Below are positions 14,281 through 19,604 of a DNA stretch of 64,000 nucleotides, in pieces. Each line of letters opens with the position of its first letter. Position 1 is the stretch's first letter. The notes beneath the pieces were generated by a model. That model did no database searches, had not been told where the DNA came from, and saw nothing but the letters and a program-made list of their open reading frames with translations. The stretch is from Cloacibacillus porcorum. Its GTDB lineage: Bacteria; Synergistota; Synergistia; Synergistales; Synergistaceae. The stretch spans positions 1,729,501 to 1,793,500 of the forward strand of contig NZ_CP016757.1 in the NCBI RefSeq assembly GCF_001701045.1, in the 5' to 3' direction. The translations under genes were made by a program, and so were the position numbers.

Positions 14281-14528
14281 GCAGTAGCCTCTCCCGTGTT
14301 GTTCGTATCATCGTCGATCTTTACCTCTATGCCCTCGCCGCGCAGGGATTCCATCATCTCCATGAGATATGGCAGCTGCTCCTTCGGACTGAAGACGGTG
14401 ACCTTGCCGGCCTTCGCGTCGTCCGTCTGGAGAAAGCCGATGCCCTCCGCGGCGTCTATTATCCAACTGATATAGTATATATCCTTTTGCGGTACTATGA
14501 AGCGCACCGCGGCTATCTCCGGTTTCAC
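14277..14528 (-). CDS. DUF4911 domain protein
   Basis: 83 aa soluble protein of unknown function. Seen: KDIYYISWIIDAAEGIGFLQT and a KVTVFSPKEQLPYLMEMMESL helix, matching the small DUF4911 family often found near tldD or mltG in Synergistota and Clostridia. The family assignment is from memory of that pattern. It overlaps both neighbours by four bases, so its amount should track mltG and tldD. Confidence 0.7.
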   Translation of the reverse strand: MKPEIAAVRFIVPQKDIYYISWIIDAAEGIGFLQTDDAKAGKVTVFSPKEQLPYLMEMMESLRGEGIEVKIDDDTNNTGEATA

Positions 14529-15535
14529 AGCCCCAGCTTCCTCTGCTTCGCGAGGTGTTCCTCGTAGCTCTTGCTGAAAATATGCCGTCCGTCCCCGCCA
14601 GCGAAAAAGAAGAGGTAATCGCTCTCCTTAGGCGACAGCGCGCTCTTCCACGAATCCTCCGAGGGAACGCAGATCGGCCCCGGCGGCAGCCCGCCGGAGA
14701 TATAGGTGTTGTATGGCGAATCTATCTCAAGGTCCCGGTAAGAGAGGCGGCTCTTTTTTATATTGCGCTCGTCCCAGGCGTAGATGACGGTGGCGCATGA
14801 CTGGAGCCGCATATTCTTTTCAAGGCGTTTGAGGAAGATTCCGGCGAGGACCGGCCGCTCATCCGCAGCCTTCGCCTCTCCCTCGACGAGCGAGGCGAGA
14901 ATACCGCTCTTCATCACCTCGCCAGGCGTCGTGCCAGGCGCTATTGACGCGCCGACCCGTTCGTACCAGAGCGCGGAGGCTCTTCTGACAAATTCAGCCG
15001 CCGCCTGTGGTCCCGGAGCGAGGAAATATGTCTCAGGAAGCAGGAAGATCAGGCGTTCCTCCTTTTTTCGCGGCAGCCACTCCCTGACCGCGGGAGGGAA
15101 ATTTTCCGCATCCTCTATCGCCGCGTTGAGATATGACTCCCCCTCCGCGCTGCTGCCGAAAAGGGCGGCGACCCGCTTGTAGCGGAAGCCGGGTATCAGA
15201 GTCACGCGGTTCGCGGTGGGTTTCGCCCGCGCCAGCTGCCGCGCGACGCCGGCGGGAGTGGACTTATAAAGGCTGTAAAGCCCGGGCTTCAAGCGGCGGT
15301 CAATACCAATCTCCGCCATCGCGCGCGCCAGCTCCCCGGCGTCGTTCACCGCGCCGGCCTTCGCGATGATCTCAGCCGCTCCGCGCGCCGAAACGCCGCC
15401 GGGAATGACCGCCTCGACCGAAACGGACAGACTCTTAGGCAGCTCCGGGTATTTGTATGGAAGATAAAAACAGATAAAACAGTATACAGAAGCTGTAAAC
15501 AAAAATAATAGAAGCTCCTCGCCCTTTTTCCTCAT
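14525..15535 (-). CDS. mltG: Endolytic murein transglycosylase MltG (YceG-like)
   Basis: 336 aa with one N-terminal membrane helix (about 7-27). The LysM-like/YceG domain has the catalytic Glu in LASLVEGEA (Glu218), then RPVLAGIFLKRL, SPYNTYISGGLPPGPIC and the terminal FSKSYEEH. MltG cleaves nascent glycan strands and sets their length. First gene of a leftward operon ending in ftsK, tying wall synthesis to division. Confidence 0.95.
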   Translation of the reverse strand: MRKKGEELLLFLFTASVYCFICFYLPYKYPELPKSLSVSVEAVIPGGVSARGAAEIIAKAGAVNDAGELARAMAEIGIDRRLKPGLYSLYKSTPAGVARQLARAKPTANRVTLIPGFRYKRVAALFGSSAEGESYLNAAIEDAENFPPAVREWLPRKKEERLIFLLPETYFLAPGPQAAAEFVRRASALWYERVGASIAPGTTPGEVMKSGILASLVEGEAKAADERPVLAGIFLKRLEKNMRLQSCATVIYAWDERNIKKSRLSYRDLEIDSPYNTYISGGLPPGPICVPSEDSWKSALSPKESDYLFFFAGGDGRHIFSKSYEEHLAKQRKLGL

Positions 15536-15589: not shown

Positions 15590-15877
15590 CTGACTGTAAG
15601 CAAAGCATAAAATTTTGCCGGTTATGAAGATGAGCGAGGAGCGGCCGCGTTGTGCCGTGGGTTTGAGTTGGAGACTGGCGGCGTTGGTGTGCGACTGTCG
15701 CTCCGTTCTCCGAACCGGAGCCCAGCGACGTTGGGGTTGCGGTTATGTACTGCAAAGACAGGACCTAGAGCCGCTGGATTTTGCTTTTGTCTTGTCGGCG
15801 TCACGCCGCCGTCTTCGGCGTGGAATGCCGTTTTTTGCCGCCGGTAAAAATTCCTTGGCAGATAGGGCCGTTAAGTA
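15590..15877. other. GC-rich noncoding stretch before the serine operon
   Basis: About 290 bp between mltG and the serine promoter. It contains a palindrome (CTCCG ... CGGAG around 15700) and a hairpin rich in GGCG/CGCC near 15798-15830. Frames on both strands are open but of low-complexity Arg/Pro/Ser composition, and one minus-strand frame resembles common spurious ORFs from repeated DNA. I treat it as a noncoding repeat-like segment. Confidence 0.35.
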
Positions 15878-15906
15878 TTGACATTAAGAAAAGTTAGGCG
15901 TATAAA
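15878..15906 (+). promoter_or_regulatory. Strong sigma-70 promoter of the serine operon
   Basis: TTGACA (15878-15883), exactly 17 bp, then TATAAA (15901-15906). It lies 38 bp before the leader-peptide ATG at 15945. The near-consensus boxes suggest high basal initiation, fitting control by attenuation downstream rather than at initiation. Confidence 0.8.
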
Positions 15907-15944
15907 TGTAAGCTAATTAAACTTTGAGTCAAAGGAGAAGGCAA

Positions 15945-16049
15945 ATGAGATATAAAACTTTTTCAGCATCGATATCGTGTTCGTCTCTCTCCTCCGGCCT
16001 TTCGTCGTGCGGTTGGTCGTCGCCGCCGTGCCGTTCTCAAAGCGAATAA
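15945..16049 (+). CDS. Serine-rich leader peptide (putative attenuator peptide)
   Basis: 34 codons, ATG at 15945 with AAAGGAGAAG seven bases upstream, TAA at 16047. Thirteen of 34 residues are Ser (positions 7, 9, 11, 13, 14, 16, 17, 20, 21, 25, 26, 31, 33), with three Cys, two Gly and one Trp, all amino acids made from serine. The Ser codons are mostly TCG, TCT and TCC. It is followed by an intrinsic terminator (16100-16129) and then the serine-biosynthesis genes. This is the classic layout of a ribosome-mediated attenuator, here reporting charged tRNA-Ser. The bases CCTTTCG at 15998-16004 inside the ORF can pair with CGAAGGG in the terminator's 5' arm, offering an antiterminator when a ribosome stalls early. 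The function is inferred; the composition and layout are seen directly. Confidence 0.75.
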   Translation: MRYKTFSASISCSSLSSGLSSCGWSSPPCRSQSE

Positions 16050-16099
16050 CCTTGATGCTGTAAAGTATATCCAAGCAAATAGTCCAGGTAGCGTTTTGA

Positions 16100-16129
16100 G
16101 ATCGAAGGGTGTCCTTTCGGTCTTTTTTT
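16100..16129 (+). terminator. Attenuator terminator before the serine genes
   Basis: Arms 16100-16109 and 16113-16122 form a 10-bp stem (two G-T wobbles) with a TGT loop, followed by seven T. It ends 25 bp before the first structural gene and 50 bp after the leader-peptide stop. Confidence 0.8.
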
Positions 16130-16154
16130 ATTTTATGAACTGGAGGTCTTATCG

Positions 16155-17291
16155 TTGAAGAAAAAATATCTGCTCACCCCCGGGCCGGTGGAGGCTCCTC
16201 GGAGGGTCCTGGAGGCCGCTTCGCGGCCGCTGATCAGCCACCGGTGCGGCGAGTTTTCGGAGCTTTTTAAGGGTATATCGCGCAAGCTGGGCCGCCTGTT
16301 CGAGAGCGGCCAGCCGGTGGTGATACTCCCCTCTTCGGGGACGGGCGCGCTCGAATGCGCCGCCGTGAATTTCCTGCGCCCCGGCGACGTCTTTATCTCG
16401 CTCTCCTGCGGCGTCTTCGGCGACCGTTTCCGGGAGATCGCCGCGCGCACGGGGGCCCGCGGGATATATGTGGACGCGGAGCCCGGCAGTGCGCCGACTC
16501 CGGAAGCGGCGGCTGCCGCTCTGCGTGAGAATCCCGGTGCGCGTGCGCTGCTGGTCACCCACAACGAGACCTCGACCGGCGTCACAGTGCCGGTGAGGGA
16601 GATCATAGCGGCGCTGCCCGCCGAGGGCCGTCCGCTGGTATTGGCCGACGGCGTGAGCTCCGTCGGGGCGATAGAATGTCTGCCCGAGAGCTGGGGCGTG
16701 GACGTACTCTGCACCGCCTCGCAGAAGGGGCTGATAACCCCTCCGGGACTCGGCCTGGTATGGCTGTCGAAGCGGGCGCTTGACGAGCTTAAGGGGCGCG
16801 AATGTCCCAGTTATTATTTTGATTTGAAGCTTCATCTGAAGAATATGAAGCCGGACTCTTACGCCAACCCTTACACGCCGCCGGTATCGCTCTATTACGC
16901 GCTCGACGCGGCGCTTGATATCATCCTTGCCGAGGGCGCCCCCGCGTGGTTCGCGAAGCGCCGCCGGTATGCCGAGGCCTTCGCGGCGGCCCTTGAGGAG
17001 CTAGGCTATGAGCTGCTGGTCAGGGACAGGCGTCTGCGCTCCGCCGGCGTCACCGCCTTTTCCGCACCGGGGGACGCGAGCGAGGTGGTGAGAAAACGCC
17101 TCTCCGCCGCAGGTTATGAGACGGCGGGAGGGCAGGGGACGCTGAAGGGAAAGCTGATCCGCGCCGCGCACTACAGCGACTGGGAGATGCCGGATATGGA
17201 GGATATTCTTCGCGCTTTCGCGGAGGCTATCGACAATAATTCTGACGATGGATATTTAAAAACTGCCCGAAATATTTTTGAAAATAGATAG
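16155..17291 (+). CDS. Class V aminotransferase, likely phosphoserine (or serine-pyruvate) aminotransferase
   Basis: 378 aa PLP enzyme. The PLP lysine is in TASQKGL (Lys191); ADGVSS (Asp165) and the phosphate-binding SSGTGALE are present. It starts TTG at 16155 with GGAGG ten bases upstream. Sequence type is the small-subunit/serine-pyruvate/alanine-glyoxylate branch, not classical SerC. Being first in an operon with serA and a phosphatase, it most likely makes phosphoserine from 3-phosphohydroxypyruvate and glutamate. The alternative is a serine- or alanine-glyoxylate transaminase. Confidence 0.8.
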   Translation: MKKKYLLTPGPVEAPRRVLEAASRPLISHRCGEFSELFKGISRKLGRLFESGQPVVILPSSGTGALECAAVNFLRPGDVFISLSCGVFGDRFREIAARTGARGIYVDAEPGSAPTPEAAAAALRENPGARALLVTHNETSTGVTVPVREIIAALPAEGRPLVLADGVSSVGAIECLPESWGVDVLCTASQKGLITPPGLGLVWLSKRALDELKGRECPSYYFDLKLHLKNMKPDSYANPYTPPVSLYYALDAALDIILAEGAPAWFAKRRRYAEAFAAALEELGYELLVRDRRLRSAGVTAFSAPGDASEVVRKRLSAAGYETAGGQGTLKGKLIRAAHYSDWEMPDMEDILRAFAEAIDNNSDDGYLKTARNIFENR

Positions 17292-17309
17292 AGGATGGGA
17301 GACAGCGTG

Positions 17310-18956
17310 ATGGGTAATAAATGGAAGATATTGGTTACGGAGAAGGTCGGCGAGTCAGGGCTTGATATTTTCAGGAACGCGCCCGATGTGGAGCTGGACG
17401 TGGAAATGGGGCTGACGGAGGACGAGCTGATCGCGAAGCTGCCCGGTTATGACGGGATTTTGACGCGCAGCGGCACGACGATGGACGAGAAGAAGATTGA
17501 GGCCGGAAGGAATCTCAAGGTTATCGGCCGCGCGGGAGTCGGCGTGGACAATATCGACCTGCCCGCCGCGAGCCGCCACGGCATCATCGTCATCAACGCG
17601 CCGAGCGGCAATACTCTCGCGGCGACGGAGCTGACGATGGCCAATATGCTCGCCGTCGTGCGCCACGTGCCGCAGGCCTGCAGCTCGCTGCACCGCGGCA
17701 AATGGGACCGCAACCGTTTTACGGGCTGCCAGCTCAGCGGCAGGAAGCTTTTGATAATCGGCCTCGGGCGCATCGGCAGTGAGGTGGCGAAGCGCGCGCG
17801 GGCCTTTGATATGGAGATCATCGCCTATGACCCCTATATACCGCAGAAGAAGGCCGAGTCTCTCCATGTGGAGCTTGTGAGCGACCTTGAGGGGGCCGTC
17901 TCTCTCGCGGACGTCGTGACTATCCATACGCCGCTGACGGAGGAGACCTCCAATATGATTGACGCCGATATGCTGCGCGCCTTCAAGCACGGCGCCTATC
18001 TTGTCAACTGCGCGCGCGGCGGCATCGTCGACGAGGCTGCGGTGGCCGAGGCGGTGCGCGAGGGGAGGCTCTCCGGTTTCGCGACCGACGTGTTCAGCGC
18101 CGAGCCGCTGGCGAAGGACCACCCCTTCCTCGCGGAGGATATCGCCGAGCGGATTGTCATCACGCCGCATATCGGCGCGAATACTCTGGAGGCGCAGTCC
18201 GAGGTCTCGCGCATCGCGGCGCAGAATATGCTGATGGTGCTTCGCGGCGAGCCCTATGCCCACGCGGTGAATCTTCCCTTTATAGAGCAGACGCTGAACG
18301 GCGACCAGCGGATGTATCTGAGCCTTTCCCGCAAGCTCGGCGTGCTCGCGGCCAAGCTCGCGCAGGTGCGCGGCGCCGCCGCCCACAACTGCCATGTCAC
18401 GCTGCGCGGCGCGCTCTTTGAGGATGAGGAGAAGCGCGTCGCAAACCAGCTGCGCCCCTACACGATCGCCGTCCTCAAGGGGATGCTCGAGGTGAGCATT
18501 GGCTCTTCCGTCACTTACATGATCGCCCCGCTGCTCGCGAAGGACCGCCGCATTTCGATAGACGAGAGCTGCGGCGAGTCAAAGACCTACAAGAATACCA
18601 TCGAGGTGGAGCTGGAGACGGAGAAGGGAGCGGTTTCCCTGCTGGCGACGATCACGGAAGAGGGACGCCAGCGCATCGTGCGCGTTAATGACTATTGGGT
18701 GGATTTCGTGCCGAGCGGCAAGCTGCTCATCTTCCAGAACCACGACCGTCCCGGCGTCATCGGCAAGATCGGCAGCGTCCTCGGCGAGGCGGGGGTCAAT
18801 ATCGCGAACTTCGCCCTTGGCCGCAAGGAGGGCAGCGGCCTCGCGCTCGGCGCTCTGGAGATAGACGGAGAGACTGACGACCGTCTGCGCGGTGAGCTCG
18901 TGAAGAGCGGCGATATGGTCTGGGTGACGACGGTTGATTTTACGAAGGCGGGATAG
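17310..18956 (+). CDS. serA: D-3-phosphoglycerate dehydrogenase
   Basis: 548 aa, long form. NAD-binding GLGRIG at about 151-156, the catalytic Arg region NCARGGIVDE, and the catalytic His in TPHIGANT near 290. After an intervening ASB domain, a C-terminal ACT domain (from about 475, NHDRPGVIGKIGSVLGE) should bind serine for feedback inhibition. First step of serine synthesis from 3-phosphoglycerate. ATG 17310 is preferred over ATG 17295 because GGGAGA sits at proper distance upstream. Confidence 0.95.
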   Translation: MGNKWKILVTEKVGESGLDIFRNAPDVELDVEMGLTEDELIAKLPGYDGILTRSGTTMDEKKIEAGRNLKVIGRAGVGVDNIDLPAASRHGIIVINAPSGNTLAATELTMANMLAVVRHVPQACSSLHRGKWDRNRFTGCQLSGRKLLIIGLGRIGSEVAKRARAFDMEIIAYDPYIPQKKAESLHVELVSDLEGAVSLADVVTIHTPLTEETSNMIDADMLRAFKHGAYLVNCARGGIVDEAAVAEAVREGRLSGFATDVFSAEPLAKDHPFLAEDIAERIVITPHIGANTLEAQSEVSRIAAQNMLMVLRGEPYAHAVNLPFIEQTLNGDQRMYLSLSRKLGVLAAKLAQVRGAAAHNCHVTLRGALFEDEEKRVANQLRPYTIAVLKGMLEVSIGSSVTYMIAPLLAKDRRISIDESCGESKTYKNTIEVELETEKGAVSLLATITEEGRQRIVRVNDYWVDFVPSGKLLIFQNHDRPGVIGKIGSVLGEAGVNIANFALGRKEGSGLALGALEIDGETDDRLRGELVKSGDMVWVTTVDFTKAG

Positions 18957-18959
18957 TTT

Positions 18960-19604
18960 ATGAGATTTTTTGTGATAAGGCACGGAGAGACGGCCTGGAA
19001 CGTCGCGGGACGTTTTCAGGGCCAGCAGGATACGGAGCTAAACGAAAAGGGACTGGCGCAGGCCGATCTGCTCGGCGAACGTCTGGCCGGACATAGGTTC
19101 GAGGCGGTGCTTACAAGCCCTCTCTCGCGCGCGAAGGTGACGGCGGAACGCGCCGCGTCGCGCTGTGAGTACGGCGAGTTTTTAACGGTGGAGGCGCTGA
19201 CGGAGATCAACCACGGCGACTGGGAGGGGCGTCTCGCCGACGAGATCGCGGCGGAGTGGCCCGATGAGCTTCACCGCTGGCATGTGTCACCGGAGACGGT
19301 GACGATGCCCGGCCCCGGCGGAGAGAATCTTGAGGATATCCTGCGCCGCGCCGTCCCCGCGGTGGAGGCGGCGGCGAAAAGGTACGAGGGCGACGTGCTG
19401 CTGGCATCGCACGATGCGGTGATCAAGGTGCTGCTGTGCTATTGGCTCGGCGCGCCGCTCGCGAGTTTTTTCCGCTTTCAGGTCCCTAACTGCAGTATAA
19501 CCGTCATCGAGGTGAAGGAGGGCTCCGCGCCGCGGATGCTTCTGATGGGAGACGCCGCGCATCTGGGGGATAGCTTTGAGCGCCCAGAGCAGAAAGGTCT
19601 GTAA
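18960..19604 (+). CDS. Histidine-phosphatase-superfamily protein, likely phosphoserine phosphatase
   Basis: 214 aa. N-terminal RHGET (residues 7-11, phospho-His8), NEKGLAQA, and the second catalytic His in LLASHDAVIK. This is the cofactor-independent branch of the phosphoglycerate-mutase-like superfamily. It starts three bases after serA, and no HAD-type SerB is seen, so it is the natural candidate for the last step, phosphoserine to serine, as shown for the metal-independent enzyme of Hydrogenobacter. A different small phosphatase role remains possible. Its stop codon TAA is also the first bases of repeat A1. Confidence 0.8.
   Translation: MRFFVIRHGETAWNVAGRFQGQQDTELNEKGLAQADLLGERLAGHRFEAVLTSPLSRAKVTAERAASRCEYGEFLTVEALTEINHGDWEGRLADEIAAEWPDELHRWHVSPETVTMPGPGGENLEDILRRAVPAVEAAAKRYEGDVLLASHDAVIKVLLCYWLGAPLASFFRFQVPNCSITVIEVKEGSAPRMLLMGDAAHLGDSFERPEQKGL

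Follow-up and report, generated by a model that had tools for sequence, protein, structure and literature searches.

Does the short Ser-rich reading frame that lies upstream of serA in Cloacibacillus porcorum serve as the leader peptide of a serine-responsive switch? We addressed this question in a 64,000-nucleotide stretch of the genome (the window) and in the upstream regions of the corresponding operons in related bacteria. The results favor a serine-specific, ribosome-mediated transcription attenuator placed before an aminotransferase-serA-phosphatase operon, and from the sequence evidence we put the probability of this reading at roughly 0.87.

The leader region and the operon downstream

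A divergently oriented gene on the minus strand (14525-15535) flanks the leader region on one side, and a plus-strand operon flanks it on the other. The following features were identified:

15878..15906, plus strand: leader promoter, with -35 box TTGACA (15878-15883), a 17-nt spacer and -10 box TATAAA (15901-15906)
15931..15941, plus strand: Shine-Dalgarno stretch AAAGGAGAAGG of the leader ORF
15945..16049, plus strand: Ser-rich leader ORF, with ATG at 15945, 34 codons and TAA at 16047-16049
16098..16129, plus strand: intrinsic terminator, with the hairpin at 16098-16124 and the T tract at 16123-16129; its 3' arm is strand C
16155..17291, plus strand: class-V aminotransferase with a TTG start at 16155 (PF00266; no NCBIfam equivalog cut-off reached)
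17295..18956, plus strand: serA, phosphoglycerate dehydrogenase with an ACT domain (Pfam; TIGR01327, 576.7 bits, cut-off 454)
18960..19604, plus strand: histidine-phosphatase-superfamily protein (PF00300; NF045917 PspA below cut-off)

A first-pass annotation had described a near-consensus promoter before the leader ORF, a 34-codon ORF with a strong Shine-Dalgarno stretch that encodes 13 Ser, three Cys, two Gly and one Trp, and a hairpin with seven T directly before a serA operon. The promoter is read directly in the sequence, recounting of the translation (MRYKTFSASISCSSLSSGLSSCGWSSPPCRSQSE) returned the same composition, with 12 TCN codons and one AGC codon for Ser, and the hairpin with its T tract was found at 16098-16129. 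A generic promoter scan skips the -10 box at 15901-15906, since it requires T at position 6; TTGACA and a TATA-like -10 box occur at the equivalent position in almost all relatives inspected. The terminator hairpin GAGATCGAAGGGTGTCCTTTCGGTCTT (16098-16124) has a folding energy of -14.5 kcal/mol and 12 pairs according to the terminator scan, and is followed by seven T at 16123-16129.

Taken together, the three downstream genes can be read as covering all three reactions of the phosphorylated serine pathway. Judged by context, the aminotransferase is probably phosphoserine aminotransferase and the product of 18960-19604 is probably phosphoserine phosphatase; both substrate assignments rest on gene context. 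As a separate observation, serine hydroxymethyltransferase (PF00464) had no match at E 0.001 in the C. porcorum genome (99.98% complete), whereas 14 of 14 control genomes had one; serine could then not come from glycine by that route.

Chance and conservation across Synergistota

A Ser-rich ORF alone means nothing in this window, where such ORFs are common: 11 of the 557 ORFs of 20-70 aa contain at least nine Ser in 18 codons. A terminator follows just one of these 11, the leader ORF at 15945-16049. The automated criterion required an ORF with at least six Ser in 18 codons and a terminator. Of 78 regions upstream of the operon in relatives, 56 had this layout, as did 16 of 3120 first-order Markov surrogates. 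Among the 22 regions that the script did not accept, eight (L025, L026, L033, L034, L037, L125, L154 and L157) have a Ser-rich leader by eye and miss a threshold. Outside Synergistota, only one of 74 aminotransferase relatives scored, and this sole match (L102) is apparently due to chance. Judged from these comparisons of sequence, the layout of a Ser-rich ORF and a terminator is not a product of chance.

The aminotransferase and SerA were searched in 61 and then in 183 genomes of the order, and the DNA upstream was read. Families f1, f2, f3, f5, f6, f7, f8, f9 and f10 have a Ser-rich ORF and, after it, a terminator before the serine operon or before serA alone. Where the aminotransferase does not adjoin serA (for example in L119, L124-L127, L158 and L159), the leader sits directly before serA. 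The upstream comparison that had been suggested for the relatives thus returned a Ser-rich ORF and a terminator kept in nine families and, within clades Ia and Ib, pair changes on both sides of the helices.

The Ser ORF is missing from the leaders of L007, L012, L013 and L120-L123, all from small genomes of the family (1.3 to 1.8 Mb). L012 retains the terminator and the A:B complementarity described below (E 1.2e-8 with R1, a covariance model that spans strands A to C) but has no Ser-rich ORF, as if the attenuator were decaying. In three other serine operons of the order (L133, L136 and L145), no leader was seen by script or at a glance.

R1 picks up the serine operon of 12 family members at E 1e-8 or better. 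The weak extra matches that were read, including one in C. porcorum, are located at the ends of genes, lack a Ser-rich ORF and resemble ordinary terminators. The R1 search found no second copy in the C. porcorum genome, and one such element is present per genome, at the serine operon.

Mutually exclusive helices in the leader RNA

An attenuator is expected to have a product-rich ORF in its leader and a terminator between this ORF and the first structural gene, both of which are present here, together with an alternative helix that excludes the terminator. Candidate strands for this helix are as follows:

16035..16044, plus strand: strand A (TCTCAAAGCG), antiterminator 5' strand at the end of the ORF
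16092..16101, plus strand: strand B (CGTTTTGAGA), antiterminator 3' strand, overlapping the 5' arm of the terminator
15998..16004, plus strand: CCTTTCG, an earlier-proposed antiterminator strand, which pairs with CGAAGGG at 16103-16109 and is a possible extension of the antiterminator

A and B form ten consecutive paired positions (16035-16044 with 16092-16101), and the segment 16007-16111 folds into the A:B structure with a z score of -2.9 relative to shuffles. In 13 relatives from clades Ia and Ib, pairing in the terminator helix is complete (100%), and three of its pairs have changed on both sides; for the A:B helix the corresponding figures are 90% and two pairs. The MAFFT alignment, which aligns clade Ic poorly, was left out of these pair counts. 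At one position, strands A, B and C all change together, from U7-A74-U98 to C7-G74-C98 (clades Ia and Ib).

Strand swaps between clades were evaluated by duplex energy. For this purpose the A window was restricted to the ORF end, because RNAduplex on the entire ORF sometimes chooses UCC runs against the GGAGGG of the terminator. Over 61 loci, the mean energy was -22.6 kcal/mol for the cognate A:B duplex and -18.2 kcal/mol for A paired with B of other clades. All 11 clades show a negative A:B interaction term, which is large in Ia, Ib, f7 and f9, and small in f3, f5, f6, f8 and f10, where coadaptation is weak. The observed A:B value was reached once in 20000 clade permutations, and the mean p was 0.0013 with one leader per clade. 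By covariation and by these swaps, A:B is the alternative helix that excludes the terminator.

The first-pass annotation had instead placed the antiterminator at CCTTTCG:CGAAGGG. This helix can form: the lowest-energy fold for a ribosome at codons 7-14 contains it next to A:B. The main antiterminator strand is A at 16035-16044. The CCTTTCG 7-mer also occurs in the congener L002, and the helix between 15998-16004 and 16103-16109 was seen just in the window species and this congener. A:B is the best-supported antiterminator on the available sequences.

Ribosome position and the proposed mechanism

How the ribosome could select between these helices depends on where it stops. We assumed that a stalled ribosome covers about 12 nt past its A site, which together with masked folding defines the control codons:

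15963..16022, plus strand: the first eleven of the 13 Ser codons (codons 7 to 26), all TCN

A ribosome stalled at any of these codons ends short of strand A, whereas one that has reached the stop codon lies over A. Equilibrium folding of the whole leader lacks switching in most species, so for masked folding the transcript was cut off at the terminator loop. Under these settings, B in the window leader is sequestered at 0.78 with the ribosome on upstream Ser codons versus 0.56 with the ribosome at the stop. Across all loci the values are 0.65 and 0.59, a modest difference in the expected direction (Wilcoxon p 0.049). The truncated window leader free of ribosomes favors A:B (0.82), and a protector hairpin shared across species was not established. 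The full leader at equilibrium prefers the terminator in most species, so the attenuation decision must be kinetic. A kinetic decision is the accepted view for known attenuators.

The placement of the control codons is as expected of an attenuator in the window, modest in its effect across species, and unclean in L008, L010 and L130. In these three loci, which form part of clade Ib, the ORF extends about ten codons (about 30 nt) beyond strand A, and a ribosome at the stop codon would consequently leave A uncovered. In L009 and L129, the ORF ends right after strand A. Inspection by eye also showed a hairpin of the CUCC...GGAG type within the Ser run in the middle of the ORF in many species of L015-L026 (clade Ic, f2), which is a candidate pause or protector hairpin.

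Nine-family conservation, covarying exclusive helices and Ser codons upstream of A strongly support the idea of a serine attenuator with which the first-pass annotation began. From the component parts and how they are conserved, from the joint changes in strands A, B and C, and from the geometry, we infer translation, stalling, readthrough and the direction of the response as follows. Transcription would start a few bases past the -10 box, and a ribosome would translate the leader close behind the polymerase. When charged tRNA-Ser is ample, the ribosome would reach the stop codon and cover strand A (16035-16044), leaving B free to enter the terminator, and transcription would stop to give an RNA of about 215 nt. 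When charged tRNA-Ser is scarce, the ribosome would stall at one of the eleven Ser control codons and leave A exposed. The exposed A would pair with B once B has been transcribed, before the 3' arm of the terminator exists, and the polymerase would then continue into the aminotransferase-serA-phosphatase operon.

Codon use and the amino acid probably sensed

Across 61 leaders (2429 codons), Ser accounts for 23.5% and Cys for 5.7% of codons; in ten window genes the shares are 6.2% and 1.4%. Between the congeners L001 and L002, the leader ORF has no indel and all 13 Ser are conserved, with three synonymous changes among the Ser codons, whereas eight other positions differ in residue, including one change from Cys to Ser.

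This Cys enrichment, with three Cys in the C. porcorum leader, raises the alternative that the same attenuator responds to cysteine, or to Ser and Cys jointly. Cysteine is made from serine, and Cys codons are slowed along with UCN codons during serine starvation of Bacillus subtilis, where AGC and AGU codons are unaffected (PMC3862929). However, Ser is four times commoner than Cys in the leaders, six of the 61 leaders lack Cys altogether, and the operon makes serine. Neither serS nor the best cysK homologue of the C. porcorum genome has such a leader. A cysteine-responsive or joint switch is therefore improbable, and a switch specific for serine is preferred.

Ser codons of the leaders are biased toward UCN. 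UCN makes up 497 of 572 Ser codons (87%) in the leaders, whereas in aminotransferase genes from 16 loci it makes up 321 of 425 (76%), and the excess is significant both for all leaders (Fisher p 5.8e-6) and for the matched 16 (p 0.0013). It is possible, and we suggest only tentatively, that charging of the UCN-decoding tRNA-Ser is read phylum-wide with Cys supply as a second input, such that the serine family is sensed, and that this arrangement is probably ancestral in Synergistota. Since the leaders prefer UCN over AGY, they offer a direct test of whether a dedicated switch uses isoacceptor-specific tRNA charging, which is known from B. subtilis.

Relation to known regulatory systems

The amino acid operon attenuators (trp, his, thr, leu, ilv and phe; the Henkin and Yanofsky scheme) combine a product-rich leader ORF with a terminator, carry the antiterminator strand within the ORF and are placed directly before a biosynthetic operon, as here. 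The present leaders differ from the trp and his type in that the amino acid is serine, in their long UCN-biased Ser runs (often 8-14 Ser) with Cys, in their occurrence in Synergistota, and in having no clear protector hairpin common to all species. The predicted Cys attenuator uORFC-8-2 of Rhodobacterales cysS likewise joins codons for a serine-derived amino acid to a terminator, but with two tandem Cys codons, before a tRNA synthetase gene and in other bacteria (PMC8632094). The UCN-codon serine sensor of B. subtilis sinR also detects serine starvation through slow UCN codons; it differs in acting on translation of a repressor gene without a leader peptide or terminator (PMC3862929).

Serine genes elsewhere are controlled by RNA elements, and the terminator could in principle be governed by a riboswitch, a T-box or a protein-bound RNA, with the Ser-rich ORF being incidental. 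The Ser T-box before serA of Paenibacillus polymyxa senses tRNA-Ser charging and controls a terminator, but it reads uncharged tRNA directly through one specifier codon, free of translation (PMC8002221), and the conserved T-box sequence is absent here. The serC RNA (RF00517) of alphaproteobacteria is a regulatory leader before serC-serA; it sequesters the ribosome site by means of two conserved stems and has neither a leader peptide nor a terminator (PMC1273637). The Rfam covariance models of the T-box and the serC RNA gave no match at gathering score in the window, leader included; nor did any other Rfam family, the region 15800-16200 giving only a chance match. What is conserved is the Ser-coding frame and the complementary strands rather than aptamer-like sequence, which makes control by such an RNA element very unlikely. 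It is just as unlikely that the ORF encodes a functional small Ser/Cys-rich peptide, or that the leader is unregulated and its terminator only reduces expression: the ribosome site is strong and the ORF is conserved as a frame, but the peptide has no Pfam or NCBIfam match, and its length (about 23-64 aa) and residues drift while Ser richness, the link to serA and A:B complementarity persist.

For the serine attenuator, the first-pass annotation had remarked that no well-described example with a leader peptide was known. Our searches for a serine leader-peptide attenuator, a Ser-rich leader peptide or a Synergistetes leader peptide in the open-access literature (subscription journals being outside the scope) agree, as none was found. 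The main text of an intergenic survey of Thermovirga lienii (Synergistetes) reports the riboswitch candidate SLH and leaves serine unmentioned; its supplementary table could list the region as a uORF. The mechanism is classical, while its use for serine and in Synergistota is new relative to the open-access literature searched, which does not prove priority.

If the proposal is correct, serine would join the amino acids that are read by leader-peptide attenuation. No such attenuator was found described in Synergistota, and the 61 natural variants analysed here could serve for working out its rules. A short terminated RNA is a further prediction of the attenuator reading, as is an ORF that annotation of these genomes has likely overlooked.

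Upstream of the leader promoter, about 240 bases of the segment 15610-15868, which separates the divergent gene from the promoter, are missing in the congener L002; in the C. porcorum genome, these bases are single-copy except for a 32-base match elsewhere.
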